Virus record (IMG/VR): IMGVR_UViG_3300025641_000460
Span: 1 to 39,438 of that record
DNA from: a virus
DNA length: 39,438 nt
Direction: 5' to 3' (one strand)
Shown here: positions 1 to 33,208 of the stretch, one piece after another
How the letters are laid out: every line of letters begins with the position of its first letter
How positions within the stretch are numbered: position 1 is the first letter of the stretch
Notes under the pieces: generated by a model
The model's input: only the letters and a program-made list of their open reading frames with translations
Told to the model about the DNA's origin: nothing
The model's database searches: none
Program-made: the position numbers and the translations under genes

Positions 1-1737
1 TAAGATATCATCTGGTACAACTCTATCTCGCGTTTTATTCGCTTCAACAGCTGCATGATAGTTTTTAAGTACCCAAATAAGGTGAACGTTTTTAGAATTA
101 TACCCAGCTTCGATTAATGGTTTGATTACATCTGTGATTGATGATACTTTTTTAGCAGTAATATCAAACAATAAGTTAGGTAAAGTTTCTTTGTTATTCT
201 TACCACTTAACATTGATACTAACCATTTATCTTTTAACCCCATAGAATCTACAATATAATGTAATGATGCTACATTGTTAGGGCTCTTCAAATCAGATGC
301 AATATCAGAGATACTCATACCCTTACCAAGTACAAATTCTTCAATATGAGCTTTAGGTGATAACCCACCGCCTTTACCCGGTTTATCTGATAATGTCTTA
401 CCATACTTCTTATACCACTTATCAACTGAGAATTTACCTAATTGGTCTAACTTCCCAACTGCTTTCTTCATCTCATCAACATCTCTTACTTTGAATCCTG
501 CTGAATCTATAAAGTTATCTATTGCGAATCCCTTACCACTACCAGCACCACCTGCCATAAACACTATCTGTCCGTAAGGTGCTCTGTTAGAGAATGTGAT
601 TAGTTTTTCATCTATTTGTTCTTCGTTTACTGATTCTTTTAATGAAGATTTTTTGTTAATGATATTTTTTATATCATTGAATGTTTTAAATGGAAAATAT
701 CCTTTATTTGGTATAAACACTCTTGAAGTTGAATACTCTATTTTAATTTCTTGTAAATCGTAATTGTACTTATCTTCAATATTATACTTTACACTAAAAG
801 TACTCACATTATCTCCATATCTATTTGGAAATTCTGGAAATTCTTTTACTTCTCCTACTCCTTTTTTTGTTTTAAGGAATTTAAGAACAGCATCATGTAT
901 TTTTTTTAATGAGTTTACATCAGGTGATTCATTTACTGATTCAGTAATTACTCCATTCTTTACATTATAGTATGTAGGTATCTTATCCCAATCCTTACCA
1001 TTAGTTTTAACACCAGTATAAGTTTGGTTACCATCTTGCTTCCAAGCACCACCACCATCTTTGAATTTTATCATCGTTGGTGTATCTTCATACCAAGTCC
1101 ACTCACCATCAGATGCTTGAGCTACATACTTAGCCCACGATGGGATTTTTTTAAAGTTTGGTAATTTCTTTTTAGCTTCGTTAACTGATTCGTTTTTTAC
1201 ATCTGAATATAACCCTTTGACCCATTCGATAGATTCTTTATTTGGTTTAACCTGCTTACCATACTGTTTGAAGAATTTTTTAATAAATTCATCTTCTGTT
1301 GATGATGATTTGATTGTAAGGTGTATATCACTCATTATACCTTCTTTAAGTCCTTCAGGAACACAATTAGGAACTTGCTTACCACCTTTGGTTTTCATAC
1401 CAACTTGTTTGTAGTTATCCCAACAAACCTCATTGATTACCGATTCTATTGTTTCATTGAACTTGTTAGTGTGTTCTGATATAAATCTAAGTTTAGTCTT
1501 ATCACCTTTATATTTCTTAGTTAAGGCAGATAAGTAATTTCTGAATAATTTAAAGTTTTGTAGTATATCACCTCTAGTTGGTGTAATTGCAGCATCACTT
1601 CCATTGTCTCCACGAACTGCCTTCATACCATCTAAAAACTTACTATCTAATACTTTAAGATAATCAACAAATGTCATATCTTTGGCTTCACCCAATTGTG
1701 ATTTTATCTCTGATTGTATATATTCTTTTAAATTCAT
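1..1737 (-). CDS. Modular P-loop kinase-like phage protein, C-terminus beyond window (partial)
   Basis: The frame is open from an ATG at 1737 to the window edge: 579 codons, no stop. I read several modules. The N-terminus MNLKEYIQSE followed by QLGE|A resembles a T4 capsid-targeting peptide. Residues ~100-120 hold a CWDNYKQVGMK segment of a kind I associate with marine phage proteins. A tryptophan-rich module spans ~188-260. A P-loop domain follows, with Walker A GGAGSGK at 396-402 and a later basic NKTRDRVVP segment, reminiscent of zeta-toxin/kinase folds. The motif ESVNE occurs three times (183-187, 266-270, 368-372), each between modules. The ATG overlaps the upstream gene's TGA (ATGA), implying coupling. 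The kinase call is moderately supported; the polyprotein or packaged-cargo idea is inference. Substrate unknown. Confidence 0.75.
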   Translation of the reverse strand, partial: MNLKEYIQSEIKSQLGEAKDMTFVDYLKVLDSKFLDGMKAVRGDNGSDAAITPTRGDILQNFKLFRNYLSALTKKYKGDKTKLRFISEHTNKFNETIESVINEVCWDNYKQVGMKTKGGKQVPNCVPEGLKEGIMSDIHLTIKSSSTEDEFIKKFFKQYGKQVKPNKESIEWVKGLYSDVKNESVNEAKKKLPNFKKIPSWAKYVAQASDGEWTWYEDTPTMIKFKDGGGAWKQDGNQTYTGVKTNGKDWDKIPTYYNVKNGVITESVNESPDVNSLKKIHDAVLKFLKTKKGVGEVKEFPEFPNRYGDNVSTFSVKYNIEDKYNYDLQEIKIEYSTSRVFIPNKGYFPFKTFNDIKNIINKKSSLKESVNEEQIDEKLITFSNRAPYGQIVFMAGGAGSGKGFAIDNFIDSAGFKVRDVDEMKKAVGKLDQLGKFSVDKWYKKYGKTLSDKPGKGGGLSPKAHIEEFVLGKGMSISDIASDLKSPNNVASLHYIVDSMGLKDKWLVSMLSGKNNKETLPNLLFDITAKKVSSITDVIKPLIEAGYNSKNVHLIWVLKNYHAAVEANKTRDRVVPDDIL

Positions 1738-2518: not shown

Positions 2519-3121
2519 TTAGTGAATTAGTTTATTTACATATTTCTGAACTTCTTCATCTACACTTTCACGAACTAACATGGTTTTGATTCTTACATTT
2601 GGGTATTTTGATTTGAGTCGGTCTACTGCATCTATGTTCTTCTTAGAATCATCGGCAAAAGCTATGTCGGTATACCCCTTCTTAATATGCTTTTCAATCC
2701 AATCTGCTTTATCCTTTGGGTTGTTACTTCCTAATGCTACAACGTAAACATCCATTCCATACTCATCTTTGAAGAATTTACGGACTGGAAATGCTAACTT
2801 CCTTGCAGTTAGAATCGTAACCTTTTTACTTGGGTTATCTAACATTCTCTGAAGTAGTTTAAAGTTCTTTTTGATTACCTTTGGATTGTTTAGTTTTCTA
2901 TTGAAATCTTTGAAATCAAATTCATCACCAGGTTTTTCATTATAAGTAGCGTAATCAGCAGGGTCTAACTTAGTTGTACTACCATCTTTATGGTTTACAT
3001 AGATAAAGGATACAGTTGTAGCAAGAGTATCATCGAAATCAAAAACACGAAGAACTTTACCTTCGTTTAATATTTGAATTTCTTCTTTAAATACCTCTGA
3101 TATAAATTTACTCTTATCCAT
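2519..3121 (-). CDS. HAD-superfamily phosphatase-like protein with CTS-like N-terminus
   Basis: The 200-residue protein has HAD motif I as FDFDDTLATT (nucleophile plus general acid Asp), motif II as TILTAR, and motif IV as FADDSKKN. This is the layout of phage HAD phosphatases and of the phosphatase half of polynucleotide kinase, so a phosphoester substrate such as a nucleic acid 3' end or nucleotide is plausible. The first ~20 residues (MDKSKFISEVFKEE, then ILNE|G) are not part of the HAD fold and resemble a T4 capsid-targeting peptide with an [LI]xE cut site. A second motif, ESVDE, sits near the C-terminus. It follows the metallopeptidase-like gene by one base. Fold is well supported; substrate and packaging are inference. 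Confidence 0.8.
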   Translation of the reverse strand: MDKSKFISEVFKEEIQILNEGKVLRVFDFDDTLATTVSFIYVNHKDGSTTKLDPADYATYNEKPGDEFDFKDFNRKLNNPKVIKKNFKLLQRMLDNPSKKVTILTARKLAFPVRKFFKDEYGMDVYVVALGSNNPKDKADWIEKHIKKGYTDIAFADDSKKNIDAVDRLKSKYPNVRIKTMLVRESVDEEVQKYVNKLIH

Positions 3122-3122
3122 A

Positions 3123-3878
3123 TTATTTTAATTTAGGGATTCCACCAATTTTAGGGATTCTCTTTTTCCATGTAGTATAAATCTCAGTTCTCTTCTTAGT
3201 CGTAATTACACCATCATCTACCAAAGAATCTAAATAATCATCAACCACTTTCTGATACGGTTTCTTCATTGTTTTAGCCTTTGAGTATAACCCATGTATG
3301 TTAGCATCTACCTCTTTTGGTAATAAGAAGTATTTGTAGTATAATTTAGGGTTGTCTTGTATTTTACGTCTCATAGCATCATCACCCCTCATTCTTTTAC
3401 CGGGTTTTTCTGAGGCAGAATCTTTACCATGTGTTAGGTGTTCTATTTCATGTCTTACCAAATCTCTGAGTACTGGTTGTATCTTTGAGAAAATACTTCC
3501 ATTTATATCATTCGGGTGGATACCGATATTCACTTCCAATGTTGGGTAATCTTCATCAGCTTCGGCAAACCCATCAATAAAGAACTTACCTTGTTCAACT
3601 CCATCTTCTGTTACTGCTAATTTAAGTTCTACCTCAACATCAACACCACTTATATTATCTGAGTAATCACCAACTTGTAATTTACGAGTTTCCTTTGCAA
3701 ATAAATCCTGCATTGTACCCATAGGGTCTTTACGAACCTCATACCCTTTAAACTTCTTTGGTTTAGATTCAGTACCACTACCTTTGATAGCACTCTTTAG
3801 AGTTTTGAATACATCTTTGTTTATCTGACCCGTCAGTTTATCGTACATACCTTCTACTATTATATCTTTTAGTTTCAT
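3123..3878 (-). CDS. HExxH metallopeptidase-like protein with CTS-like N-terminus
   Basis: This 251-residue protein contains RHEIEHLTHG at ~142-151, a zincin HExxH motif (H143, E144, H147). A downstream PKEVDA at ~187-192 could supply the third zinc ligand. It is flanked by beta-rich sequence before and helices after. The N-terminus MKLKDIIVE|G closely mimics the T4 internal-protein targeting peptide (MKTYQEFIAE), cut after Glu by gp21. A promoter box TATATTTG ends only two bases upstream of the ATG, so the transcript may be nearly leaderless. It heads a run including the HAD gene one base downstream. It is probably a virion-associated protease-like protein; target unknown. Confidence 0.7.
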   Translation of the reverse strand: MKLKDIIVEGMYDKLTGQINKDVFKTLKSAIKGSGTESKPKKFKGYEVRKDPMGTMQDLFAKETRKLQVGDYSDNISGVDVEVELKLAVTEDGVEQGKFFIDGFAEADEDYPTLEVNIGIHPNDINGSIFSKIQPVLRDLVRHEIEHLTHGKDSASEKPGKRMRGDDAMRRKIQDNPKLYYKYFLLPKEVDANIHGLYSKAKTMKKPYQKVVDDYLDSLVDDGVITTKKRTEIYTTWKKRIPKIGGIPKLK

Positions 3879-3880: not shown

Positions 3881-3912
3881 CAAATATACGAATTTTTTAT
3901 TAAATATCCAAC
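3881..3912 (-). promoter_or_regulatory. Bacteroidota-type promoter P1
   Basis: Minus strand: GTTGGA (3907-3912), 18-base spacer, TATATTTG (3881-3888). The 24-base offset is identical to seven other sites in the window. It overlaps the 3' end of the upstream gene, and the next ATG (3878) lies two bases after the -7 box. Confidence 0.65.
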
Positions 3913-5324
3913 TTTTTATCAGTTGTTTTGAAGTCTTTTTTTCTCATCACAGTCTTAGCGATTACTTTGTTCGACATTTTCATAAACGGAATGTTTATGT
4001 TTGTTCTATCATCTACTGCAACTACTGAATTGTAGGTATCTAAGAAATCTAAGAAATCTTTCTTCTTCTTAGATAATCGTTTGAAAAACCCAATCAACTC
4101 TGCAGATGATATCTCTTTATCGTTACGAGGGTCATTTAATCGGTCAAAGAAATGTTTATCTGTAAGTACTACATCCATTGGATTAAGTTTCTTATCTGCG
4201 AATGTATCAATCTTTTGTAAATCACCCATTGGAATTTCGTTGATTGCATCTTCCACCACATCATAACCACTACCATATGGTGCTGATTTACCATTGTGAT
4301 TAGGTGCTACATTTTCTTTTAGTGTTTTTTTCCAATCCTCTAATCCAACTAAATCAATCTTTTGTGATTGTGCATCATAGCCACAGTTATGACAAAAGTA
4401 TGGTCTATCATCACTATGTATAATATCCCAACTATGAGTACAATTAGAACATTGAATTGATGCACCTGTGCTTTCATTCATTAATCTGAATTTCATTAAT
4501 GGTTTGTTGTTGATTGTAATATCACCTTTTTCGTTCTTACCGATTGATTTAACAACGATTCTTTTATTTTTGAACTTACCACCCAATACAGTATCACCTA
4601 CGTTAATTGGTATCGTAATGTCTTCATTTGCTTTTTTAGTATTGTTAGCCTTCATCGTCTTTACTCTAATCGCTTCAGCTTGTTTTAATTTAGGAAGTAT
4701 TTTTCTAGCTACTTTTTGTATTTTTCCTGAACTCTTAGCTAACTTCTCAGAAAACTTTATCTTATCATTCATACTCATATCAGCCGGAGATTTCTTCATC
4801 ATCTTCTGCATCAATATTGTTTTTGCTTTTCTCTCAGCCGCTTTTAGTAAATCTGAATTAGACCGCTTCTTCTTCATCTTTCTGATACGTTTCTTTAATC
4901 CTCGTTTGAGTCTGGATTTAGATGTACGAGCCATCTTCATTCTAGCTGCCTTTCCCATAACTTCATTTAATGAACTTGCAATATCATTATAAAGTTCAAT
5001 TGCTTCATCTCTTTTTAAGTGTAATGTGAATGTAGGAACTTTTACATCTTTACCAAATTTGTAAATTGCAGCACCCCATCTGTGATGTCCATCCACTATG
5101 TAGTTATCCTTAGATATGATTAACGGTTTCATATCAGTAGGTTTGTTGTATTTTTTTGAGATACCAATAACCTTAGATTTAATGAGTTCTTTCTGAGAAG
5201 CTTTTAGACTTCCTGCCATACTCATTCCTTTAGTTACTTTTACTTTAGATTTTGCCATACTAAGAGCTTTACTCAGTTTTTGAGTATTCACTTGTGGCAT
5301 ATCTTTTCTGTTATAGACTGGCAT
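3900..5324 (-). CDS. Multi-module ParB-like / zinc-ribbon phage protein
   Basis: The 474-residue product reads as several proteins in a row. Residues ~1-117 form a ParB/sulfiredoxin-like domain with VDGHHRW at 77-83. Next is SSLNE|V at 118-122, then a very basic helical module (ARTSKSRLKRGLKKR and following) that resembles stand-alone proteins of marine T4-like phages. A small beta module follows (NVGDTVLGGKFKNK, ~241-282), then LMNE|S. A zinc ribbon has CSNC at 292-295 and CHNC at 311-314. The C-terminal domain (~360-474) contains a LTDKHFFDRLNDPRN segment. Short Glu-ending junctions separate the modules, compatible with cutting by a prohead protease. Its start overlaps the previous stop by one base. 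Overall function unknown; internal head or other virion protein is my inference. Confidence 0.7.
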   Translation of the reverse strand: MPVYNRKDMPQVNTQKLSKALSMAKSKVKVTKGMSMAGSLKASQKELIKSKVIGISKKYNKPTDMKPLIISKDNYIVDGHHRWGAAIYKFGKDVKVPTFTLHLKRDEAIELYNDIASSLNEVMGKAARMKMARTSKSRLKRGLKKRIRKMKKKRSNSDLLKAAERKAKTILMQKMMKKSPADMSMNDKIKFSEKLAKSSGKIQKVARKILPKLKQAEAIRVKTMKANNTKKANEDITIPINVGDTVLGGKFKNKRIVVKSIGKNEKGDITINNKPLMKFRLMNESTGASIQCSNCTHSWDIIHSDDRPYFCHNCGYDAQSQKIDLVGLEDWKKTLKENVAPNHNGKSAPYGSGYDVVEDAINEIPMGDLQKIDTFADKKLNPMDVVLTDKHFFDRLNDPRNDKEISSAELIGFFKRLSKKKKDFLDFLDTYNSVVAVDDRTNINIPFMKMSNKVIAKTVMRKKDFKTTDKKLDI

Positions 5325-6073
5325 TATTTACTCTTCTTTAATCTACTTTTTTCAGCTCTACCTCTATTCTTAGATTCTGATTCGAATCCAACAATCTTTC
5401 CACCCTTATGACTGGCATCCTTGCCATCTCCGTTACCGTATGTGCCCTTATCTCTATTGTACTTATTCAGTTCTGCTCTATACTTCTTTGCTTTTTCAGA
5501 TTTTCCGTACTTTGCATACTCTTTTTTGTAATCTCTTTTAGCTTCCTCTGTTACTGATTCGTATTTAATCATATCAGGATTAAACTTTTCAAAATTCTTC
5601 TTGGCCCATTTTACTGCATCTTCATAAGACTTAAATTTAATCCTATCTTGCTTAAATCCCTTTTTCTTATTTAGATAATCAATGTAAACTTTTTCTTCTG
5701 TAACAGGCTTTGCATCGTTGAATGCTTGGTCTAATTGTTCATCTTCTTTTAACCCATCATTACCATCTAGGTAACTATAAACTGATTTTAGATAATCATC
5801 TGCCAGAGTAATTTTTGCAAACACCCAACCATCAACATCCTCAATATTCTGTTCTTTCATCTTTTTATAGATTCCTTTAGAATATTTCATCGCTCTTTCG
5901 AGTGATGCGTATGTCATCGAGGTCTGCGAATCATCAACTTCTTCAAGGGATTCTGTGACCCTTGCTATCTCTTCGCTTATTATTTTTCTAATCTCAACTT
6001 TAGTACTTTCAGTAATATTCGTATTACCATACTTCTTTTCAAGAAGATTTACTAATTTTTCTAATCGTTCCAT
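5324..6073 (-). CDS. Two-part phage protein with HNH-like C-terminus
   Basis: The 249-residue protein has a charged helical N-terminal half, a central domain (KFKSYEDAVKWAKKNF), then ESVTE at 172-176 and a strongly basic C-terminal domain. The latter has an HNH-like arrangement: NRDKGTYGNGD, DASH at 219-222, then E and NRGRAEKSR. Similar NR...GNGD...SH...NR domains occur in T4-like marine phages. Because the motif is compact and not a perfect HNH, nuclease activity is uncertain. [LI]xE-type sites (SLEE|V) occur in the first 45 residues. The ATG overlaps the stop of the 54-residue gene (TAATG). Confidence 0.65.
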   Translation of the reverse strand: MERLEKLVNLLEKKYGNTNITESTKVEIRKIISEEIARVTESLEEVDDSQTSMTYASLERAMKYSKGIYKKMKEQNIEDVDGWVFAKITLADDYLKSVYSYLDGNDGLKEDEQLDQAFNDAKPVTEEKVYIDYLNKKKGFKQDRIKFKSYEDAVKWAKKNFEKFNPDMIKYESVTEEAKRDYKKEYAKYGKSEKAKKYRAELNKYNRDKGTYGNGDGKDASHKGGKIVGFESESKNRGRAEKSRLKKSK

Positions 6074-6945: not shown

Positions 6946-7383
6946 TTACTTATACACTTTGAAAGGTGCTGTTCTATTTTTATAACCTTCATAATCAGCT
7001 TTAAATTCTTCTAATCGAGGTTCTATATCATCTGATTTAATAATCCAAAATTGAGCTCCAACTGCTCTAGCCTTTTCGATTTCTTCTTCATCCTGAGAAG
7101 ATGAGATGATTCCGATAACTACTCCATTACCATAATCATAATTTATTTTTCTGATTAGTTCAATACCATCAAAAGAAGAACCAATTATATTTAAATCAAC
7201 AAATACACACTCTGGTCTTTCATCTATAGGCCCATCTGTAAACCATTTCTTAAAAAGTTTATCTGCTTCATCAGAAGAATCCAATGCTTCTAATGCAAGA
7301 GCAATATCTAATAGAGAACACGCATCCTCAAACACAAGATGAAACAAATTCTCATCATCTACTAACATTAACGAATCAATCAT
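6946..7383 (-). CDS. Single-domain response regulator (CheY-like receiver)
   Basis: This 145-residue protein is a complete receiver domain. It has the acidic pair D9-D10 (LMLVDDEN), the phosphoacceptor D63 at the end of beta3 (VFVDLN), the conserved Ser/Thr position in GIISSS (~94-96) and the conserved Lys in WIIKSD (K116). There is no DNA-binding output domain. The ATG overlaps the kinase's TGA by four bases (ATGA), so the pair is translationally coupled and surely cognate. A stand-alone receiver would act by binding a partner: perhaps the coiled-coil membrane protein next door, the holin, or a host regulator. Family call is very secure; the output is unknown. Confidence 0.9.
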   Translation of the reverse strand: MIDSLMLVDDENLFHLVFEDACSLLDIALALEALDSSDEADKLFKKWFTDGPIDERPECVFVDLNIIGSSFDGIELIRKINYDYGNGVVIGIISSSQDEEEIEKARAVGAQFWIIKSDDIEPRLEEFKADYEGYKNRTAPFKVYK

Positions 7384-8300
7384 ATCTTTATTCTCATTTT
7401 AGTTCCACTTTCAATTTCAACTGTGTCTGGGTCATCTTCTATTTCTTCAATTGAAAGTTCAAAGCCATGCTCTTTTAGTATAGCTTTACAAATATTTAAC
7501 CCAAGACCCGTTCCTTTCTCTTTTTGACCTTCTTTACGAACATATGGTTTAGATAACTCATCAAATTCACTCTGAGTCATACCTCTACCATTATCTTCGA
7601 TAACAATGAAGCTCCCTTTATTATAATTACCTTTAAAATATATTTTAACCCATTTTGTTGGTGAATCATTATATTTTAGTCCATTTCTAATTAAGTTATC
7701 AATTGCAGTACAAAAAAGTGGTTCGTTTACTTCTAATGTAGCAGGTAAATTATCATCTAATAATACCTGATTTTTATATGCAGTAAGTGATAGATATTCA
7801 TTTAAGATTTGTTTAATGTTATTTGGTGTTTTCGACATCTGAGCATTTTCTTTTACTAAATTAGTAAATTCATATACTCCACTATATACTTTTTGAGCAT
7901 GTTTAACACCATCTCCTAACAATTGTAGTGGTGCTCTTAGTTTTTTCTTTTGTTCATCATCCAACCTTCTTTGAAGTGAATTTAATCCTCTTGGAATGTA
8001 AGTATTGATACCACTATGCATATCATGTCTAATGATTTTTGCAGCGTGTTCTAAGTATATGTTCTTCTTACTTAAATCATCTTTAATTTGTTGTTTGTTC
8101 TGAATAAACTCACTTACCACTTTAAGGAATGGTGGCATGAAGAATACAACACAACCCCAGCCAAACTTAGCAAGAAATAAGGTTGGTTCACATAATCCAA
8201 ATACAATACAGGTTTGTACTGCAAAGAAGGTCATCATAATTAGACCTGCAACTATTAAGGAGATTTTGGAATTTATAGATATTCCATCAAGAGCGTTCAT
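7380..8300 (-). CDS. Membrane-bound sensor histidine kinase
   Basis: The 306-residue protein has two predicted membrane helices (~12-32 and ~42-60) with almost no loop between them, so no periplasmic sensor domain. The dimerisation region carries the phosphoacceptor motif AAKIIRHDMHSG (H92 followed by D93). The HATPase domain has an N box (DNLIRNGLKY, N206), G1 (EDNGRG, 236-240) and G2 (GTGLGL, 263-268). All catalytic boxes look intact, so autophosphorylation is expected. The gene lies between a YgaP-like membrane protein gene (adjacent) and its receiver partner (four-base overlap), inside the lysis region. The signal may be membrane state or a partner membrane protein. Kinase assignment is secure; lysis control is inference. 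Confidence 0.92.
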   Translation of the reverse strand: MNALDGISINSKISLIVAGLIMMTFFAVQTCIVFGLCEPTLFLAKFGWGCVVFFMPPFLKVVSEFIQNKQQIKDDLSKKNIYLEHAAKIIRHDMHSGINTYIPRGLNSLQRRLDDEQKKKLRAPLQLLGDGVKHAQKVYSGVYEFTNLVKENAQMSKTPNNIKQILNEYLSLTAYKNQVLLDDNLPATLEVNEPLFCTAIDNLIRNGLKYNDSPTKWVKIYFKGNYNKGSFIVIEDNGRGMTQSEFDELSKPYVRKEGQKEKGTGLGLNICKAILKEHGFELSIEEIEDDPDTVEIESGTKMRIKI

Positions 8301-10230: not shown

Positions 10231-11436
10231 CTACTTTCTATAAATTAGTTGATGTTCATATGTTTTTACCCTATTAACGTTTACTCTGAATATATCAAAT
10301 TCAAACTCACCAACCTCAATTTCAGATGACTCAAGTATGGTAGATAATTCGGTTATTAATTTATAAGAATACTCTGTTAATTTATTTCCATCAAAGTGTA
10401 TTTCTATGTCAGAATTGGTATTTACGTTGATTCTACTCCTTAAATCAAAGTCAGTATCTACCTGCTCTTTTTCTATATATTTATTGATAATATCATCATC
10501 TAAATCCATTTTGATTTTATCGCACCAAGGTTCTAATATTTCTAATAATTTACCATTACCATTTTCAACATTAAATTCAACATCATACTTTGGTGGTACG
10601 ATTGGCTTCATCAAAGAATCATGTTTACAATAATGTCCCCATTTTCTAAGGAAATTACGAGTTGAGCGATTGTTCTGAGTTAACCACTCATCTGTCTCTC
10701 TATTCTTCATAAAAACCTCACCATTTGGGTTTCTCTTAGCACCATCTGCAAATCTACTACCTCTACAAGTCATATGATATACAAACCCATCCCAAGTCTG
10801 AACGAACTTATATCCATTCAAATGAAATCTATTGAAGATATCAGTATCCTCTTTTGATTGTGGAGCAAATAACGGGTCATGCCCATTGATTGATGTGAAA
10901 TCTTCTTTAAATAAGAACCAGGGTGCAAAGATACCTTCGGTTGTTCTACCCTGCTTCAATGATGGAATCTGATTTAGGAGTTCATCTTCTAACTTTACAA
11001 ACTCTTCTGGTTCTATACCGAAATCCATAAGAATCTTCTCAGGCCCATCTGGATGTAGTGGTGGTTCTATTCTAGTAAGTGATACAACGTGCTTTGGTTT
11101 GATGTGTTCTAATACAGATTCTAATGCACCAGGACAAAGATACATATCAGCGTGATATATTCCTACAATTGGTGTATCTGCTATCTCTACCAACTCATCA
11201 TATAAAATTGTATGTCCTAATCGTTTAGGCCCTTCGTTTCTAATTGCTTTGAAGTTTGGGTCTTTTACCATCATATCCTCACACCACTCCCAAGTTCCAT
11301 CGTTACTGAAATCATCAGCAACACATATGGTTGGTTCTGGCCCACCATTCTTTCTGATTGAATCGTATGACCACTTCAAGTAGCGTAAATTGTTTCTTGA
11401 GGGTTGTATAAACGAAATATCTTTTTTACTTATCAT
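10231..11436 (-). CDS. Glycosyltransferase family 2 with C-terminal extension
   Basis: The 401-residue protein begins with a GT-A fold: ISFIQPSRNN, VADDFSNDGTW (first acidic motif, ~39-50) and GIYHADMYL (~92-100), an HAD in place of the usual DXD metal motif. A later QSKEDTDIFNRFHLNGY segment fits the GT2 acceptor/catalytic ED region. After ~residue 250 comes a C-terminal extension rich in Asp/Asn that I do not recognise. GT2 enzymes transfer sugar from a nucleotide sugar to an acceptor in the cytoplasm. It is the final gene of the glycan run, overlapping the previous gene by four bases. Confidence 0.85.
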   Translation of the reverse strand: MISKKDISFIQPSRNNLRYLKWSYDSIRKNGGPEPTICVADDFSNDGTWEWCEDMMVKDPNFKAIRNEGPKRLGHTILYDELVEIADTPIVGIYHADMYLCPGALESVLEHIKPKHVVSLTRIEPPLHPDGPEKILMDFGIEPEEFVKLEDELLNQIPSLKQGRTTEGIFAPWFLFKEDFTSINGHDPLFAPQSKEDTDIFNRFHLNGYKFVQTWDGFVYHMTCRGSRFADGAKRNPNGEVFMKNRETDEWLTQNNRSTRNFLRKWGHYCKHDSLMKPIVPPKYDVEFNVENGNGKLLEILEPWCDKIKMDLDDDIINKYIEKEQVDTDFDLRSRINVNTNSDIEIHFDGNKLTEYSYKLITELSTILESSEIEVGEFEFDIFRVNVNRVKTYEHQLIYRK

Positions 11437-12341
11437 AATTTAAAGTTTTTCTTAAATACAGCCTCAGTATAATGCTTATTATATAATTCTTTTGTTAATA
11501 TACGATTTTCTTCGTAGAAATCCAAATCATTCCATAGTTTATTTACTAATTTTCTTGCAGTTTCTAAATCACCATTCTCTACTGATAGATTTGGGTGAAG
11601 GATTCTTTGAGTATCTAACTCCTCATACCCAATACAAGGAATCCCTAAGTAACTACAGTTTAGAGCGAATGTACCGGCTGCATGGGTTCTCATCATATGA
11701 ATACCTAACTTCCTCTTATTCAACTCTTTAATCCACTCATTCCATTGTAGGTAAGGTAATTGTGTAATTCCTAATTCAGATTCACCTAACTGCTTCCTAC
11801 CCATTTGTGGTGAGTATATTTCATCTGTAACTGAATTAGCTAACATAAATGAATCGAATCCACCATACCAACTTACCATATTACCACCAATCATAATACC
11901 ACTTCTATCTTCCGTTGGTAACTCACCAACTGCATCTGATATCATTAGTGATTGTAATACTCTTACATCTGAATGATTTGTTAAACCTTTATAATATTTT
12001 CTATCTTGTTCGTTATGAGTAAATATTATATCAGAATCTACTAAGTTGTTATAGTAATGTATCTGTTTTTGTAAGTCATAATCTTGAAATAACCAAAATG
12101 GGCCCTCTTGCATTACACCTACTTTATCACACATTGTTTTTATATGTGTTAGATTTACAGATGTTGGATTATTCTTAGGAGTTATTACAATACCTAAATC
12201 AAATCTCTCATTGACTGTATCATTCATATTAAGATGTGTTGCTCCCATCGCAACCATCCATGCAAATTCCGTTCGCATATTAGGGTGAGTTCTATCAATC
12301 TTACCATTGAACTGCATTTCTGTAAAGAATGCTACTTTCAT
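11433..12341 (-). CDS. GT-B-like glycosyltransferase
   Basis: The 302-residue protein begins MKVAFFTEMQFNG and has the alternating Rossmann pattern of GT-B enzymes. A C-terminal nucleotide-binding half includes GIHMMRTHAAGTFALN, then GIPCIGYEELD, matching the donor-binding loop of GT4-like enzymes though without a canonical EX7E. It lies between PIG-L deacetylase and GT2 genes with four-base overlaps on both sides, so all are co-translated. Donor and acceptor unknown. Confidence 0.7.
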   Translation of the reverse strand: MKVAFFTEMQFNGKIDRTHPNMRTEFAWMVAMGATHLNMNDTVNERFDLGIVITPKNNPTSVNLTHIKTMCDKVGVMQEGPFWLFQDYDLQKQIHYYNNLVDSDIIFTHNEQDRKYYKGLTNHSDVRVLQSLMISDAVGELPTEDRSGIMIGGNMVSWYGGFDSFMLANSVTDEIYSPQMGRKQLGESELGITQLPYLQWNEWIKELNKRKLGIHMMRTHAAGTFALNCSYLGIPCIGYEELDTQRILHPNLSVENGDLETARKLVNKLWNDLDFYEENRILTKELYNKHYTEAVFKKNFKL

Positions 12342-12994
12342 ATTATATAATTTTTGTTAATTCTAAATTCTTCAACTACATACATATTCTTTTTAGAACA
12401 TTGGAAATTGGAATGAAATGTATCTAACGTTTCTCTTTTAAAGTATCTATGATGTAATTGTGATTTAAACTGCTTTAACATTTCAACTTTTGAGGAATAC
12501 TGCTGTTTAATATCCACTATTAGATTGGGAATCCACTCATCTAGTGTCGATGGTGATTTATATTCTATTAAAGATACCGGAGATTCTCTATTTGGCCAAA
12601 TCCCTCTAGTCAAAGCAGGCCCTAATCTGTAAACTAGCTGATGTTCAAAATGACTATCAATGTTTGATGGTGTAAATATACAATCGTAAACATTTTCTTT
12701 CAGAAACCTAGTTTCTATATGATTAACCCACTCTTCCTCTATGCGGTCTCTTAGAAAGTTGTTATCACAGAAATGAAGGTTTACGTTTTTTGGAAGTCCC
12801 CAATGACTCCACACATTTACAACCTCGTCTAATCTAGATACATTAGTTGTAGTATCACAATCACCACCATTTGATAAACATACTATATCAAATATAGTAT
12901 CAGTGCATTTAAGTATCGTACCCAACATACTGTATTCTATATCATCTGGATGTGGTGATAAACACAGTACTCTATTAAAATTTAATAACTTCAT
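12338..12994 (-). CDS. PIG-L / LmbE family deacetylase
   Basis: The 218-residue protein has the zinc-binding signature SPHPDDIEYS (~13-22) and a C-terminal SHFEHQ (HxxH-type) motif, the standard PIG-L pattern. Such enzymes remove N-acetyl groups from GlcNAc-type sugars, yielding free amines that can be modified further. In this cluster it fits with the UDP-GlcNAc-derived dehydratase/reductase pair and the aminotransferase. Four-base overlaps with both neighbours. Family call is secure; its specific substrate is not determined. Confidence 0.85.
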   Translation of the reverse strand: MKLLNFNRVLCLSPHPDDIEYSMLGTILKCTDTIFDIVCLSNGGDCDTTTNVSRLDEVVNVWSHWGLPKNVNLHFCDNNFLRDRIEEEWVNHIETRFLKENVYDCIFTPSNIDSHFEHQLVYRLGPALTRGIWPNRESPVSLIEYKSPSTLDEWIPNLIVDIKQQYSSKVEMLKQFKSQLHHRYFKRETLDTFHSNFQCSKKNMYVVEEFRINKNYII

Positions 12995-13704
12995 AACTTT
13001 TTTAATTTGGAAATATCCATACTAACATCCGATGGTTTATGTTCCGGTCTAAGAGAGTTAGCAACATTTAAATTTGTTTTCTTAGCCAAATCGTACATAG
13101 ATGTGGTATCACCACCTACATTATAAATACCAGTTTTTTCCTTATTAATTAAATCTACTATTATTTTACATATATTATCTACATAATCAAAATTACCAAC
13201 CATATCACCATACGCAATAGGATTGGAATATGGTGTAGTTTTGTGGCCACATCTAATTGTTAGATAATCAGCTGATTTTAACTCCACATACCCATCGGCA
13301 AGTAATTTAGTATAACTATACCAATTGTTACCATGTACAGGCACATCGGTCTCTGATGTATTTGGTAATGAGTTTGTGTATATATAATCAGTTGATATAT
13401 GCACTAATTTAATTTTAAACTTATTGCAGAAATCAACTAACCTAACTACTGATGCATAATTTACATCCCAATGAGATTTCTTATCATCTGAGTATGTGTC
13501 TGTATTTGCTATACAATTAATTATTGTAGATGGTTTTGAGTAACCAATTCTACCTTCATGTGGTAAATCAATATAATCTATAAATTCTTTTTCAAAATCT
13601 GCGGTTGTGATATCGAATCCATCTTTTTTACATTTGTACTTCCATCCCGTTTGGGTTGACATTTCTTTTCCTAAAAGACCTTGCCCTAATATTAAATTAC
13701 CCAT
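12991..13704 (-). CDS. RmlD-like NAD(P)-dependent sugar reductase (SDR)
   Basis: The 237-residue protein is a shortened extended-SDR: N-terminal GQGLLGKEM nucleotide-binding loop, VHISTDYIYT strand, and catalytic YSYTK (YxxxK), followed by a small C-terminal domain with GIYNVGGD. It resembles dTDP-4-dehydrorhamnose reductase (RmlD, usually ~290 residues), but the early segment is atypical, so the substrate may be a different 4-keto sugar. It overlaps the aminotransferase fusion gene by eight bases and the deacetylase gene by four. Confidence 0.78.
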   Translation of the reverse strand: MGNLILGQGLLGKEMSTQTGWKYKCKKDGFDITTADFEKEFIDYIDLPHEGRIGYSKPSTIINCIANTDTYSDDKKSHWDVNYASVVRLVDFCNKFKIKLVHISTDYIYTNSLPNTSETDVPVHGNNWYSYTKLLADGYVELKSADYLTIRCGHKTTPYSNPIAYGDMVGNFDYVDNICKIIVDLINKEKTGIYNVGGDTTSMYDLAKKTNLNVANSLRPEHKPSDVSMDISKLKKL

Positions 13705-15613
13705 TTTCTTTAAAGTATTGATTTACCCAATAGATTACATAATCGATATCTTCTTCTGTCATCGCTGGATGAACCGGTAGTGATATCAATCTCTCCCATT
13801 CTTTTTCGGCGTTTGGCCATTCTCTATCTTTGTGAGTTAGATGTTTCTGAATTATTTCATATTTGTGTAGAGGTTTGAAGTGTACAGATGTATGTACCTT
13901 CTTATTTGCAAGATAATCAATCAACTCACCTCTATGTTCGGAAGGTACTTTTGCACAATAGTATTGAACTGTTTCAGTATGTGGGGGTCTTTCAACGTGT
14001 TCACATAACCCTTCGTTATATCTTTTTTGAACATACCTTCTCCAATCTAATATTTGTGGTAACTTTTTAAGTTGTTCCAAACAGATTGCTGCATTTATAT
14101 CAATCATATAACATTTGTATCCAATCTTATCTACTTCGTAATCCCAAGTGTAACCTGGTTTACCAGTAACAGTATCTTCTTTTGCTACCCTATCGTATGT
14201 AGATGAAACCCCAAACCAAGTCATTTCTTTTAATTTGTGATATAATTCTTCATCATCTAAGGTAATCATTCCACCATCCCCACAAGGCATTGTCTTAACT
14301 GCTTGGAATGACCAGATTGCAATATCACCTTTAAGTCCTGCTCCTTCAGTATAACAACTATGTGCACAATCTTCAATAATCAAACCATCATAAAATTCTC
14401 TAATCTCATCAATGGGAGCGGGTACACCAGCTTGATTTACGACAATGATTGCTTTTGTATTTGGAGTGATACTTCTTCGTACATCCTCCACATCGATATT
14501 CATTGTGTATGGGTCTACATCAACTACATTTGTAGTAATGTTTTCTTGCCATAGTGGAATCATTGCAGTTGCCATAAATGAGATTGTGGGATTAATCACA
14601 TCACCATCTTTAATATCTAATGCTTTCATAACCAAATCTTGCCCATGTGAGTTGGATGTTACTGCTATTGCGTATTTTGCTCCAACCAATTCCGCAAACT
14701 TCTGTTCGAACTCAGCAACTTTAGGGCCCTTACCCCACCAACCACTTTCGATGACTTCAGTTAACGCTTCTATTTCTTCTTTACCACCATGTGGTCTTAG
14801 TACGGGTAACATTGTTTCTCTTATTTTCATAGTTGTTAATTTTTTAATAAATTTATCGACATCTGAACTTATTTCTCTTATTGTAGATTCACTTAACTTT
14901 TCGTTTCTTTTAATTATATCCCCCAATGGAACTCCTTCGTTCTTAGCTACACGCCTATCTTCTCTAGTTCTCTTTATTCTAGAACCAGCCCAATGGTGAT
15001 ATATTAAATCACCATAAATACCAAAGTAAAGTAAATGAAGATTGATGGTATTTGTTCTTTCTAAGACCCCCCACTTACCAATATGATTCTTTAGCCAAGT
15101 ATTAACGCCACCCCACCAATTACCACCTGCGTCTGCGGCTCGTGTACACATAGCGTGCATTAATCCAGAATCGGTTAATAAATATTCACCTTTAAATGCG
15201 TAAAATACTGGATGAGCAGTATTGTGATTTAAATCATGTTCATGTCTCGGTTCTTTTAAAGCTATAAACTTTTCTCTATCAACTCTGTCTAAAAAAGAAC
15301 TATCAATGTCATTTATAAAAAATGCATCTGAATCTAATTTTATTACTATATCATTGGGTTCTAAATTTTTCTTTATTTTGGGTAATGCTAATTTATTACC
15401 ATCTATATTATGGAACTTTTGTCTAGAGTCTGATATTAAAATATCAAAGTCATTTTTATAATTTTTAATATTTTCAGGCATATTCACATGAACCATATAG
15501 GTTTTATATGGCACTTTTAGATACTTTTTTATCGAATCTAATTGCACGTCTATCCAAAACGGATTTTCATAGTGTACTGATGTTATGTGTATTGTTCTAC
15601 TCATATAATTCAT
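13697..15613 (-). CDS. Glycosyltransferase-DegT/DnrJ aminotransferase fusion
   Basis: The 638-residue protein joins two enzymes. Residues ~1-255 are GT-A-like: IHITSVHYENPFW at the start, LDSDAFF (DXD at 94-96), and a LIYHHWAGSRIKRTRE ending. Residues ~262-638 form a complete sugar aminotransferase (DegT/DnrJ/EryC1/StrS), opening with MKIRETMLPVLRPHGG as if from an original start codon. It has SWF-type WSFQAVK with the PLP lysine K440 and IIEDCAHS with D415. The aminotransferase would convert a keto sugar to an amino sugar, and the GT half could transfer the product. An alternative start (MSRTIH) at 15604 reduces the overlap with the preceding gene from 17 to 8 bases. Confidence 0.85.
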   Translation of the reverse strand: MNYMSRTIHITSVHYENPFWIDVQLDSIKKYLKVPYKTYMVHVNMPENIKNYKNDFDILISDSRQKFHNIDGNKLALPKIKKNLEPNDIVIKLDSDAFFINDIDSSFLDRVDREKFIALKEPRHEHDLNHNTAHPVFYAFKGEYLLTDSGLMHAMCTRAADAGGNWWGGVNTWLKNHIGKWGVLERTNTINLHLLYFGIYGDLIYHHWAGSRIKRTREDRRVAKNEGVPLGDIIKRNEKLSESTIREISSDVDKFIKKLTTMKIRETMLPVLRPHGGKEEIEALTEVIESGWWGKGPKVAEFEQKFAELVGAKYAIAVTSNSHGQDLVMKALDIKDGDVINPTISFMATAMIPLWQENITTNVVDVDPYTMNIDVEDVRRSITPNTKAIIVVNQAGVPAPIDEIREFYDGLIIEDCAHSCYTEGAGLKGDIAIWSFQAVKTMPCGDGGMITLDDEELYHKLKEMTWFGVSSTYDRVAKEDTVTGKPGYTWDYEVDKIGYKCYMIDINAAICLEQLKKLPQILDWRRYVQKRYNEGLCEHVERPPHTETVQYYCAKVPSEHRGELIDYLANKKVHTSVHFKPLHKYEIIQKHLTHKDREWPNAEKEWERLISLPVHPAMTEEDIDYVIYWVNQYFKENG

Positions 15614-16361
15614 TGTATGTTCTTTCCATCCAATACGACACGTGTCTATCGTTCTGTGGAATTGCGTTAAAATGATAAACCCAACCTGCTTCTAAGAATC
15701 TCAATTCATCTTTAAACCACGAGTGGTTGGGTATGTGTAATAAATTCTTTCTAAATAAATCTTGTAGGTTATACCCTTCAGATAATTTAGTTACCTCTAT
15801 ATTATTTTTCTGTAACATAAAGTTGACCATTGTTTGGCCAGTACTTGCTTTTATCGTATCTCTGTAATGTTTTATTTCATCACCCCTATTAAGATACAAA
15901 TCCTTAATCTCATCAAAGAACGGTTTATGTTTTTTGTTTACAATTACAAACCCAGTATTAAAGTAATCATATGGTTTTACTAATGGTTCATTTGGAAACA
16001 TAGCATCACCCCATCCTTTGATACTACGAGTTGTCCACTCATAACACCCATTATTTATAACCGCTGAATAATTGTGATTGGTTTCTTCAAAGAAGTTAGG
16101 GCAGTTGGGATGAACTATTGTATCTGCATCAACAATTAACACTTGGTCATAATCTATATTGTTATGTTCTATGATATCAAACACCCACTCTCTCTGCATT
16201 ATGATTGGGAATGTATCAGAATTCATAATAGGGTCAGTCCACTCTAAACATATAGCATCGTTCTTAGCACACCATGTCTTCCAACTCTTTACTGAGTAAT
16301 GATATGGTGTACTTCGTCCGTTGCCTAAATCAACATTCGGTATGAATACTACATTTTTCAT
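15597..16361 (-). CDS. GT-A glycosyltransferase (GT8/GT2-like)
   Basis: The 254-residue protein has a GT-A layout with VLIVDADTIVHPNC (DXD-type DAD at ~80), a central NTGFVIVNKKHKPFF segment typical of GT8-like and nucleotide-diphospho-sugar transferases, and a C-terminal GWVYHFNAIPQNDR with a metal-binding-type His. It overlaps both neighbouring genes. The sugar transferred cannot be told from sequence. Confidence 0.75.
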   Translation of the reverse strand: MKNVVFIPNVDLGNGRSTPYHYSVKSWKTWCAKNDAICLEWTDPIMNSDTFPIIMQREWVFDIIEHNNIDYDQVLIVDADTIVHPNCPNFFEETNHNYSAVINNGCYEWTTRSIKGWGDAMFPNEPLVKPYDYFNTGFVIVNKKHKPFFDEIKDLYLNRGDEIKHYRDTIKASTGQTMVNFMLQKNNIEVTKLSEGYNLQDLFRKNLLHIPNHSWFKDELRFLEAGWVYHFNAIPQNDRHVSYWMERTYNELYE

Positions 16362-17788
16362 ATAAGTTCCTTTATACTTTGTATTAAATTAATTGGTTTC
16401 AATGTTGCATTATGTTTTTTCATATCATCTAATTTATCCATATCGTAAACACTTTCCAAATCAATCAAACTGATTTGCCAGAAGAAATCATCTTTTATAA
16501 TGTTAATTGGAACTAAATCATAAAATACTTTATTTCTTTTTTTACAATTTCTTAACACAGTCCTAACAAACCACTTCGGTATTGATTCATAATCACCTTC
16601 GTTATCTGATAACATTGTTCCGGCTAATGTGATATATCCAATTATGTTTTTATCATCATCTTCTATTAAATGAGTCATTGAAGGTGCTAATCCGTTTAAG
16701 AATCCACTATCCAAAGCATCTCTAAAGTTCTGTAATCTACAATACTCAGGATGAAATACCTTTACATAGTAACCATCACCTGCATAAACTACTCTTCCTT
16801 GATTAACACCATTGGCAATCCTATTGTACTTATCCTTTATTAATGTAAGAGATTTTAAATCTAACTCTGTTACATTTATACGAGGTCTGAATGATGGTAA
16901 TCCCCATTTGTACGTTATCGTATCGAATGGGTATCCTAAATCAGAACCCCTATCAAAGAATCGTTTGATGCCATCCCAATCACGCATCTCTCGTACCGAA
17001 TTCATATTCTTTCTTGCAAAGTAGAATCGAGGTTCTAAGAACTTATACCCATCTATAGTGATACAGAAATTCTCTAAGATATCATCATCACCATTAGCAC
17101 CAAAGTAATCAAACTTAGTTTCATTTGCGGGGAAGACATCGATACCTTTTGGAAATGAGATGTTTTGTTTTCTTAATTTAGATGAAATGATTATATCTAA
17201 ATCATCATTATCTCTAACCCCCATAACTGTTAGAATCGAACTCTGACATAAACAATAATCACCCCTACTGATTCCCATTTCATCTAACTTAGATAAATGT
17301 TTGAGTTTGGATGTCGGTGGTTCAATTCTTATTTTATTATCATTTACCCATGCTTTATTAAATATCTTTTCAGTTTCCATATAAAATGGAATATACTTTT
17401 CACCTCTAATCAACCTACCAATCATTGCAAACCCACGATGGTAACTGTGTTTCATAAACCCATTATCAAATTCAACCGGATTACTTTGTAGGTACTCTTC
17501 AATTTCATCATCACTCATTGGTTTTAATGAATTATAGTACTCTTCTGTGAGTTCATTCCATCCCAAATTGTGGTGATTTTCAACATTATGTCTAAACCCT
17601 GCTTTCATACAGTTCCAATACTGCCAGTTCTCTGGTACTAAATTAGTTGGTATTGGGTTGGATTTCCAATACTTAACAATATCTCTCACATACTTCAATT
17701 TACCATTAAGATTTAGTATCTGTTTACTGACACCACCATTGGCAACTTCCATATTTAAAAAATAATCTAAACTAATTGGTGAATACAT
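16358..17788 (-). CDS. Nucleotidyltransferase-like plus kinase-like protein
   Basis: The 476-residue protein appears to have three parts. Residues ~30-150 form a helical region with FMKHSYHRGFAMIGRLIRG. Residues ~165-300 contain ILTVMGVRDNDDLDIII, the GxRxxDDxD arrangement of LicD-type and related nucleotidyltransferases. Residues ~325-476 look like a remote protein-kinase/aminoglycoside-kinase fold: YAGDGYYVKVF (candidate Lys343), GYITLAGTML hinge, then FYDLVPINII and SLIDLESVYD (candidate catalytic and metal Asp). It could add a phospho-group such as phosphocholine to a glycan. A promoter lies in the 53-base gap upstream. Domain calls are tentative but the gene is certainly real. Confidence 0.6.
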   Translation of the reverse strand: MYSPISLDYFLNMEVANGGVSKQILNLNGKLKYVRDIVKYWKSNPIPTNLVPENWQYWNCMKAGFRHNVENHHNLGWNELTEEYYNSLKPMSDDEIEEYLQSNPVEFDNGFMKHSYHRGFAMIGRLIRGEKYIPFYMETEKIFNKAWVNDNKIRIEPPTSKLKHLSKLDEMGISRGDYCLCQSSILTVMGVRDNDDLDIIISSKLRKQNISFPKGIDVFPANETKFDYFGANGDDDILENFCITIDGYKFLEPRFYFARKNMNSVREMRDWDGIKRFFDRGSDLGYPFDTITYKWGLPSFRPRINVTELDLKSLTLIKDKYNRIANGVNQGRVVYAGDGYYVKVFHPEYCRLQNFRDALDSGFLNGLAPSMTHLIEDDDKNIIGYITLAGTMLSDNEGDYESIPKWFVRTVLRNCKKRNKVFYDLVPINIIKDDFFWQISLIDLESVYDMDKLDDMKKHNATLKPINLIQSIKELI

Positions 17789-17809
17789 ATTTTTATTTAA
17801 TTATTTATA

Positions 17810-17841
17810 CAAATATACAATATTTTTTTGACTTATCCAAA
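17810..17841 (-). promoter_or_regulatory. Bacteroidota-type promoter P2
   Basis: Minus strand: TTTGGA (17836-17841), 18-base spacer, TATATTTG (17810-17817). It lies exactly between the CapF-like gene stop (17842) and the next ATG (17788), splitting the glycan cluster into two transcription units. Confidence 0.75.
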
Positions 17842-18906
17842 TTAAACTTCCTCAAAATAAGTATCATCTACTTTTACTTCACTTAATATATCGTTCATCC
17901 AAAAACACGCTATCAATGGTGTATTACCTATGTTTTTTAGATTATGGGTGTAGTATACGGGTGTATCAAATACAACCCCATCTGCCCCATTAATAGAATA
18001 AACCTTTACCTCACTAGCTCCTATCTTTCTCATACTAATTTGTGCAGTACCTTCTAATATACAAAATCTTTCAATACGTTTAGTATGAAAGTGATTTCCT
18101 CTAATGTGTTTAGTATCTGGTTTTGTAGTTGAATAAAATATCTGACCTGGTATTTTTGATATTACCAATTCAGATAACTTACCTCTATTATCTTCATTTA
18201 ACTTTATAGGAAATAATCTACAATCATCATCAATATAAGACCTGAATGTATTGAATAGATTTAAATCAAAACTATAATCAATATATGGTATTTTGTTTTG
18301 CTTTAAATACGCGTCTTTCCAATTAGTTAATTTGTTATAAACATATTCCACAGGTACTGTATCGGTATATTCAATTTCATCTCGTTCTCCGTTTATAACT
18401 TCTAACAACTGAATACATAAATCCTCAACATAAAGTAGATTTACACTATCTCCGTTATATGTTACATCCTCACCTTTGATTATCTTATCACAAAAAGTTG
18501 CAATAAATGAATTATAATTTGGTTTGCAGAATGGGCCGAATATGTTTGGTAGTTTTACTGATTTAAAATCACCACCCCATTCTTTGAACATTTTAATGTT
18601 ATCACGTCTCCATTTACCATTTAGATTATCTGCATCTTCGTGGATTGATGAGGTGTATATGATTTTTGGTGTATGCCCTAGCTCATCTAACTTATCCAAT
18701 AAACCGCGTGCTGATTGTCTGTTATCAATGTAGAGTTGGTTTACATCACCTCTGTTGCGTTCTTTCATATGAACGATAACATCACATTGTAATATCTCAT
18801 CCGTTAGCTCGTTTGGTAATCTAATTACATCAACATCTGTTTTGTAATTTAGATATGCCCATAGGTGATATCCTATAAACCCAACTCCGTTTATACCTAC
18901 TACCAT
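17842..18906 (-). CDS. CapF/WbjC/FnlB-like UDP-sugar reductase with cupin domain
   Basis: The 354-residue protein has an N-terminal SDR domain (GINGVGFIGYHLWAYL, IIYTSSIHEDA, PNIFGPFCKPNYNS). The C-terminal cupin (~235-354) contains HIRGNHFHTKRIERF with a metal-binding His/Glu set. This two-domain layout is that of CapF/WbjC, which acts after CapE/WbjB on the UDP-6-deoxy-4-keto-hexosamine on the way to UDP-N-acetyl-L-fucosamine. Length matches (~370). The gene for the dehydratase partner lies directly upstream with a seven-base overlap. The third enzyme (CapG/WbjD epimerase) is not in the window. Good confidence in family and pathway branch. Confidence 0.82.
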   Translation of the reverse strand: MVVGINGVGFIGYHLWAYLNYKTDVDVIRLPNELTDEILQCDVIVHMKERNRGDVNQLYIDNRQSARGLLDKLDELGHTPKIIYTSSIHEDADNLNGKWRRDNIKMFKEWGGDFKSVKLPNIFGPFCKPNYNSFIATFCDKIIKGEDVTYNGDSVNLLYVEDLCIQLLEVINGERDEIEYTDTVPVEYVYNKLTNWKDAYLKQNKIPYIDYSFDLNLFNTFRSYIDDDCRLFPIKLNEDNRGKLSELVISKIPGQIFYSTTKPDTKHIRGNHFHTKRIERFCILEGTAQISMRKIGASEVKVYSINGADGVVFDTPVYYTHNLKNIGNTPLIACFWMNDILSEVKVDDTYFEEV

Positions 18907-19847: not shown

Positions 19848-20140
19848 ATCTCTTCTATTCTTTTTGTTTTATCACAAATTAGTAAATCATATGCTGGTTT
19901 TTCACCGACACTCAGAAAGTGGTATTTACATCCCCAGCTTTTTAACTGTGATTTGGTTATGTTAAAATAATCTCTACCACTATACGAACCTCTAGCAGTC
20001 CAATATGTGATTTCATTCCCCTCGTCATATAATTTATTAATCTTTTCAATGTTTTGCATCAATGGTGTTGGGTCTTTGTAACCCAATCTTTCACCAAGAT
20101 GTTCACATATAGTTTCATCTATATCTACAAATATTTTCAT
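19844..20140 (-). CDS. Small HAD-family phosphatase of polysaccharide type
   Basis: The 98-residue protein has HAD motif I as FVDIDETIC, motif II as ITYWTARG, and a C-terminal KPAYDLLICDKT. It is a minimal, capless HAD of the kind found in capsule and LPS gene clusters, where such proteins dephosphorylate sugar phosphates or accompany nucleotidyltransferases. Four-base overlaps on both sides place it firmly in the glycan operon. The substrate is unknown. Confidence 0.78.
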   Translation of the reverse strand: MKIFVDIDETICEHLGERLGYKDPTPLMQNIEKINKLYDEGNEITYWTARGSYSGRDYFNITKSQLKSWGCKYHFLSVGEKPAYDLLICDKTKRIEEI

Positions 20141-21980: not shown

Positions 21981-21982
21981 AA

Positions 21983-24348: not shown

Positions 24349-24366
24349 AATGTTTTATTGTTGATA

Positions 24367-24398
24367 CAAATATACAAAAAAATGTTCTATTAAACAAA
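24367..24398 (-). promoter_or_regulatory. Bacteroidota-type promoter P3
   Basis: Minus strand: TTTGTT (24393-24398), 18-base spacer, TATATTTG (24367-24374). It lies in the 52-base gap upstream of the GT2 gene and is interleaved with a hairpin plus T-tract. Confidence 0.72.
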
Positions 24399-31398: not shown

Positions 31399-31428
31399 AA
31401 TTTTATAACTTTTTTTTATTAATATATT

Positions 31429-33037: not shown

Positions 33038-33208
33038 TTACTTACTTTCGTTTACTGATTCTTTTCTGTAATCGGTTACTAACTTTTTTAACTCACCAAT
33101 AGCTTTTCTTGCTCTTCCTTTAGCAGCTTTAGTTGTACCATTGTGTTCTGTTTCGAATTCTACAAATAAATCTTTAATTTGTTCGAATAGTTCATTTGAA
33201 TTTGCCAT
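33038..33208 (-). CDS. Histone H1-like (Hc1-type) DNA-binding protein
   Basis: This 56-residue ORF (MANSNELFEQIKDLF ... KAAKGRARKAIGELKKL ... DYRKESVNESK) matches the short Hc1-family histone H1-like proteins common in Bacteroidota, with the diagnostic KxAxGRARKAxxELxKL helix and YRKxSVxESK ending. These proteins bind and compact DNA. The gene directly follows promoter P6 (~39-base leader) and precedes the zinc-ribbon gene by two bases. It is likely captured from a host; it could help organise phage DNA or disturb the host nucleoid. Family call good. Confidence 0.8.
   Translation of the reverse strand: MANSNELFEQIKDLFVEFETEHNGTTKAAKGRARKAIGELKKLVTDYRKESVNESK

Follow-up and report, generated by a model that had tools for sequence, protein, structure and literature searches.

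The window, by which we mean the whole stretch of DNA analysed here, is the 39,438-base IMG/VR virus record IMGVR_UViG_3300025641_000460, a 39-kb fragment of an uncultivated virus. The phage is marine and T4-like, with genes for a family-B DNA polymerase, a clamp and a clamp loader, and there are no head genes within the 39-kb record. An open reading frame (ORF) at the start of the window encodes a mosaic protein with the following features. In these and later sequences a slash marks the end of a leader or junction.

1..1737, minus strand: mosaic ORF of a putative polyprotein, 579 aa in the window, running off the window start; L001-L013 share its shuffled modules
1687..1737, minus strand: N-terminal leader MNLKEYIQSEIKSQLGE/A, like a T4 capsid-targeting sequence (CTS), ending L-x-E/A
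1447..1686, minus strand: module A (residues 18-97), predicted helical; followed directly by the kinase in L001 and by module C in L002
1429..1446, minus strand: junction ESVINE (residues 98-103), from motif and breakpoint analysis
1345..1428, minus strand: CW module (CWDNYKQVGMKTKGGKQVPNCVPE), a short motif found repeatedly in marine T4-like phages
1192..1344, minus strand: module B (GLKEGIMSDIHL..., helical); the CW-B pair is also in L003 and L129
1177..1191, minus strand: first ESVNE junction, from motif and breakpoint analysis
943..1176, minus strand: module C (SDGEWTWYE domain), also in L002, L009 and L012 in other neighbourhoods
928..942, minus strand: second ESVNE junction, from motif and breakpoint analysis
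637..927, minus strand: module D, alone in L008
622..636, minus strand: third ESVNE junction, at a position homologous to the N-terminal leaders of standalone kinases
1..621, minus strand: Zeta-toxin-family P-loop kinase module with Walker A GGAGSGKG, truncated where the window ends

The preliminary description of this DNA had named three copies of ESVNE in this one protein, and a motif scan finds all of them, at residues 183-187, 266-270 and 368-372 (1177-1191, 928-942 and 622-636 in the window). It had overlooked a fourth form, ESVINE, at residues 98-103 (1429-1446). An excess over expectation, on which that description depended, is clear. Three copies were observed where 20,000 shuffles of this protein give 0.00095 on average, and 19 polyproteins together have 40 ESVNE-type motifs, whereas their shuffles give a mean of 0.1 and at most 3. 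With counts so far above the shuffles, a chance origin of the motif is rejected. The kinase module matches phrog_5268 (E=4.9e-35), and PF06414 is above cut-off for its homologues in L141 and Klebsiella phage KP27; searching PDB sequences with the profile of the kinase gave no match at E <= 0.01. As a separate observation, a kinase homologue in Tenacibaculum phage PTm5 (ORF-187; L202, 2897-4738) is apparently split within the Walker A loop by an insert, AGGAG/CYPKGTEFFDGKGW...IYVSGN/SGKG, that looks like an intein.

Scans of IMG/VR gave 13 loci with the whole protein and 53 loci with the kinase module, some contigs being in both. About 20 of these relatives are mosaics in which small modules are swapped at the motif, with other combinations in each ORF. 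For example, L001 consists of module A and the kinase, L002 of A, C, two other modules and the kinase, L007 has six modules with five ESVNE joints between them, and L012 has 1142 aa carrying six ESVNE/ESFVNE/ESINE joints. Ahead of module C, the motif in L002, L009 and L012 reads ESVVNE/ESVNE/ESMVNE. This comparison of modules bears out the proposal that the ESVNE copies part distinct modules. Taking breakpoints as the ends of high-identity homology and the motif in its strict form, 23 of 65 breakpoints lie within 5 aa of a motif, against a random mean of 3.5 and a maximum of 11 in 5000 trials, so that motif positions coincide with module borders above random. Only about one third of the breakpoints lie this close to the strict motif, which counts against the explanation that we favour below. 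At the DNA level the joints resemble crossovers inside the linker; that of L001 reads GAATCGGTAATCAAT/TCAGTAAACGAA, and L002 has a hybrid joint whose left half is that of A's joint and whose right half is that of C's.

The relatives also suggest where the junctions came from. At least nine modules that follow an internal ESVNE-type junction in one phage follow an N-terminal leader in another, namely the kinase, HNH-like, VYIDYLNKKKGF, KYTGNPGDK, KKPGPD, DUF5824-like, CW, KAARMKMART and KYDIGM modules. The kinase starts as MKSFKQFTESTLTE/ALITFGG in phage KP27 and is internal in the window as SLKESVNEEQIDE/KLITFSN; further standalone kinases start with MASLRDLILEVITEEQLDE/KLITY or MLTFKEFNSQRLDE/KLITF (the standalone proteins compared with the third junction were KP27 gp252, L137, L141, L142, L152 and L153). 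The KYTGNPGDK module follows MNLREFIQSEIKSQLNESVNE/ in L128 and YYAYNESVNE/ in L007, and the KKPGPD module follows MKKLKEFDIFLE/ in L010 and LTSLENFIDE/ in L012, while in L141 the CW module is placed behind the N-terminal leader IKLKDLLTE/DCWDGYKQV. Some internal joints retain a start-like Met and with it an entire leader, as in L009 (SNMKKLQTLESFVNE/KKDQ) and in L100 (SSMKLTDILSE/NKYS). The motif closes true N-terminal leaders as well, i.e., ..SQLSESVNE/A in L006, L007 and L128, MKTIKTFESFVNE/A in L010 and LINESINE/E in L142. In the L010/L012 clade, standalone leaders end in FEQFVNE or ESFVNE and the internal joints are likewise ESFVNE. The 579-aa ORF itself begins with such a leader, MNLKEYIQSEIKSQLGE/A, which falls within the usual length of about 10-20 residues and has the (L/I)-x-E end, and the homologous start of L006, L007 and L128 reads MNLREFIQSEIKSQLSESVNE/A or NESVNE/K. 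The residue after the motif's E varies among A, S, G, E, K, D and F. In the unfused proteins such start peptides most likely direct entry into the virus head and are then removed; since they stand at many joints, these chains look like phage polyproteins. The preliminary description had proposed serial fusions that kept a targeting or cleavage-type peptide for each module, and the leader/junction pairs agree with this. We regard fusion that kept each module's T4-type leader as well supported by the sequence comparison, because of the breakpoints at the motif, the at least nine module pairs, the leaders that end in the motif and its occurrence in prohead core and protease proteins described below.

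Leader-keeping fusion need not entail cutting. The ESVNE peptides could be leftovers of leaders that have become flexible linkers within a single multidomain protein, which would be a virion or a cytoplasmic protein. Kinase junctions of some relatives have lost ESVNE (PLTEEQIDEKL in L123, KDDKKLDEKL in L129, SSKNESNDRIDEKL in L131), so the motif is not obligatory, and such decayed junctions favour mere remnants. So does one AlphaFold model in which the junctions are low-confidence or coil. Models were made for the complete protein and for its residues 88-378; they are of low confidence (mean pLDDT 55) and support weakly that the junctions lie outside confident folds. In the whole-protein model, the junctions at 98-103 and 183-187 are in or beside a predicted helix, and Foldseek searches with the models gave no match at E <= 0.001. 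Against mere remnants, E-S-V/I-N/T-E is kept across divergent phages while its codons change, for example GAG TCT ATT AAT GAA and GAA TCC GTT AAT GAA. Persistence of the peptide despite codon change suggests selection on the peptide, and the motif is found again in the core and protease proteins of the prohead. We therefore consider uncut linkers unlikely.

Other proteins of the window carry related features, some of them genuine junctions and some not.

5324..6073, minus strand: second, smaller fusion protein with a helical half, a LDQAFNDAKPVTEE linker, a VYIDYLNKKKGF module and an HNH-like module
5546..5560, minus strand: junction ESVTE before the HNH-like module, matching the N-terminal leader of L124
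3900..5324, minus strand: third fusion protein, a ParB-like DGHHRW module and several other modules
4962..4970, minus strand: junction (SS)LNE/VMGKAARM in ORF 3900-5324, with standalone homologues that have leaders
3852..3878, minus strand: leader MKLKDIIVE/G of the HEIEH zincin-like protein (ORF 3123-3878), a candidate alternative protease
3062..3121, minus strand: leader MDKSKFISEVFKEEIQILNE/G of a HAD phosphatase (ORF 2519-3121)
2555..2569, minus strand: ESVDE at the HAD C-terminus, unsupported as a junction
33047..33061, minus strand: ESVNE in the tail of an Hc1-like histone (within PF07432), family sequence and unsupported as a junction

In the second fusion protein, the first part is a standalone protein in G028 (86955-87314) and the HNH-like part matches phrog_6437. 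The latter starts as MNLLEFIQKEIRTTINGRVDE/TAKRDYKKEY in L124 (RVDE/TAKRDYKKEY) and is internal in the window as KYESVTE/EAKRDYKKEY. The L124 leader thus confirms ESVTE as a true junction, exactly between the halves of the HNH-like protein as had been claimed. A second recurrent linker between modules, E-D-x-x-L-D-Q-x-F-N-x-A-x-P-V-x-E, is seen in this protein (5324-6073) and in L003, L005, L126, L129 and L130. The ParB-like match of the third fusion protein is weak. Its internal modules are standalone proteins with leaders in cyanophages and pelagiphages, and the counterparts of (SS)LNE/VMGKAARM include MLSFKQFVSE/VLDATQR in C48C1 and homologues in Melnitz and in L145 and L149.

Two sites named earlier lack support as junctions. 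ESVDE is present in the HAD protein, but the G028 orthologue, whose leader is MKKEDFVNKIFNLNE/GKILRVFDFDDT, has EFIEE there and a collinear C-terminus. The ESVNE at the histone end represents a variant of a tail typical of the family, YRKxSVxExK, which reads SSVEE, VSVEE, ASVEE or LSVEE in most of 19 homologous stretches, although the distant Hc1 of G029, too, ends in ESVNESK. Thus, of the six sites in the preliminary description, four are kept and the HAD and Hc1 sites are dropped, while ESVINE and SLNE/VMGK are added. Elsewhere in the window, a response-regulator-like protein lies beside a membrane histidine-kinase-like protein (6946-8300; HATPase_c E=2.5e-15), a two-component-like pair that is unusual for a phage. 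By eye, a membrane protein with HDVANISVFLPRE (30457-31458) is similar to PiT-type phosphate permeases and may represent an auxiliary metabolic gene, and 10231-27647 is a large apparent block of glycosyltransferase, sugar-nucleotide and aminotransferase genes.

The motif could also be a matter of DNA, that is, a 15-bp word kept mainly for module exchange by short homology, with the peptide incidental. Across the 2.9 Mb of retrieved sequence, some of it redundant, the word GAATCAGTAAACGAA is over-represented, encoding 19 of the 47 distinct ESVNE sites over all loci. In L007 (6504-8966), all five ESVNE copies are this identical word and their flanks are unrelated (P < 5e-5 relative to codon usage), and it recurs in the distant phages L139 and L141. 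However, all 47 sites lie inside open reading frames and none elsewhere, which favours a role at the peptide level. The copies in the window differ at synonymous positions (P=0.15), there is no long repeat at the crossover of the L001 deletion joint, and N-terminal leaders end in the same peptide. A pure DNA repeat is disfavoured by the sites in frames and the synonymous differences, and we consider this account improbable, but the identity in L007 is real and DNA may contribute. Nevertheless, since the word is over-represented, part of the motif conservation may be at the DNA level, and since 19 sites, including all five in L007, are identical, the joint may also act in recombination.

The link to the prohead comes from related phages, which encode S77 proteases and gp23-type capsid proteins. 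In T4, gp21 cuts after L/I-x-E and splits core proteins into several pieces, the 10-residue CTS leaders are removed by gp21, and ten N-terminal residues of IPIII are enough to have it packaged (excerpts of PMC9026906). From the full and mature chain lengths in the PDB, we deduced that the T4 capsid protein is cut after residue 65. The records of G028 and G030 each combine an S77 protease with an ESVNE polyprotein, and G029 also has the protease. Leaders of this type are found in the relatives on the major capsid protein (MCP; MDLKNILSE/G in G002, MNLSNILNE/G in G028), the scaffold (MARKDLLSE/A) and a core protein (MKLTNLLNLNE/A). Since the MCP maturation region in related genomes reads LVKE/ASSTG, V-x-E/A is plausible as a cut site. 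The motif itself occurs in the head proteins. In the protease of G029, ESVNE lies close to the C-terminus, where the SPN3US protease gp245 carries its C-terminal propeptide (excerpt of PMC10052503). Adjacent to the G029 protease, a 713-aa core protein has ESITE, ESINE, ESINE and ESVNE, and the module at its end opens the core protein of G028. A core-type protein of G030 has three copies. We also note that the prohead protease of G007 lies in an unusually long frame of 632 aa (L103, 1423-3321) in which YxxYIAExxxx segments recur and a single ESINE follows the protease domain. A cyanophage cytidylyltransferase (T4-GC190) with the leader MKKFSAFLNE/A has been detected in virions (PMC3037559), and a tblastn link identifies its relative as the N-terminal module fused to a window-type kinase in L145-L151. 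In the genome of Microcystis phage Mel-JY01, a cultured relative by DNA polymerase, there is no ESVNE-type motif; its head-gene stretch has the protease and MCP, and no ESVNE polyprotein was seen there.

We suggest that prohead-protease cutting at the junctions is likely. The whole reading, i.e., a leader-targeted head polyprotein of fused and shuffled modules whose junctions are cut by the S77 prohead protease, we hold to be probable on the basis of the sequences. The 579-aa protein would then belong to a whole family of such mosaics among marine T4-like phages. Small genes, each with a T4-type head-internal leader (a capsid-targeting sequence closing in the prohead-protease site, hydrophobic-x-E), would have been repeatedly fused in frame and shuffled, and the leader tail left at each fusion would be the ESVNE junction. 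The N-terminal leader would take the chain into the prohead core, where a gp21-type S77 protease would then cut after the junction E (..V-N-E/A/S/G/E..). This would free the Zeta-family kinase, together with several small proteins, to be individual internal proteins, which may be ejected with the DNA. Against this explanation stand the V at P3 of the motif, unlike the L/I of T4, the variable residue after E, the kinase junctions that have lost ESVNE, the low confidence of the structure models, the over-represented DNA word and the lack of head genes in the window record.

Alternatively, the chain could be processed by the leader-bearing HEIEH zincin-like neighbour (3123-3878), as for polyvalent proteins. 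Three phages share HEIEH and, downstream of it, a conserved E(V/I)DANIHG, and for polyvalent proteins processing by zincins has been proposed (Iyer et al. 2017, PMC5512222). However, with its hydrophobic-x-E end the motif resembles the sites of the T4 prohead protease, and it is found in the S77 protease and core proteins; the HEIEH protein matched no Pfam family, peptidase families included. We consider the neighbour the least probable of the candidates, slightly behind the DNA word.

Polyproteins of the proposed kind would resemble several known systems. The T4 CTS/gp21 system (IPI-III, Alt, gp22, gp67, gp68) has the same short leader ending in hydrophobic-x-E and a small residue; a gp21-type protease with a gp23-type MCP, multi-site core proteins and a site near the protease C-terminus are shared. 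It differs in that T4 has one leader per internal protein, whereas here leaders stand between modules in the chain, with P3 usually V. In the head ejection proteins of SPN3US and phiKZ (gp245/gp175), an S77-like protease also cuts after E, with many substrates, multiple cuts per propeptide and a C-terminal protease propeptide, but the cuts remove propeptides, and tandem arrays of separate modules are not reported in the available text of these papers (PMC10052503, PMC9026906). Polyvalent proteins are multidomain, rapidly shuffled and thought to be packaged and injected (Iyer et al. 2017, excerpt of PMC5512222). The ESVNE polyproteins are likewise chains of 2-15 shuffled domains in a phage or mobile element, with enzymatic, ParB-like and zincin-like domains; candidates for overlap with the catalogue are the Zeta-type kinase (PF06414), the weak ParB-like match and the adjacent HEIEH protein. 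In contrast, zincin-like peptidases are proposed there and a repeated T4-type joint leader is not described in the consulted part of that paper; set against the same part, the domains here are mostly of other families. Most modules are without a Pfam match. Polyproteins of eukaryotic viruses are similar in being a single translation product with repeated protease-type sites between units. They differ in having an unrelated protease, and the modules here are swapped between phages as cassettes, with putative cutting. In the open-licence literature searched, we found no description of tandem internal capsid-targeting sequences in shuffled polyproteins.

The broadest reading is that T4-like marine phages have true polyproteins in which the joint is both recombination point and prohead-protease site, allowing effectors to be gained or lost in one step. 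We offer this tentatively, at somewhat less than even confidence. In such polyproteins, cassettes of a leader peptide plus a module would be strung together and exchanged, and ejected effectors could be added or dropped via one recombination. If the joints are cut, dsDNA phages have a polyprotein strategy for head-internal proteins, which would account for the quick exchange of internal effectors among T4-like phages. The leader or junction motif alone would then predict which uncharacterised modules of marine phages are packaged and ejected, and thus provide a sequence rule for new ejected proteins in metagenomes.
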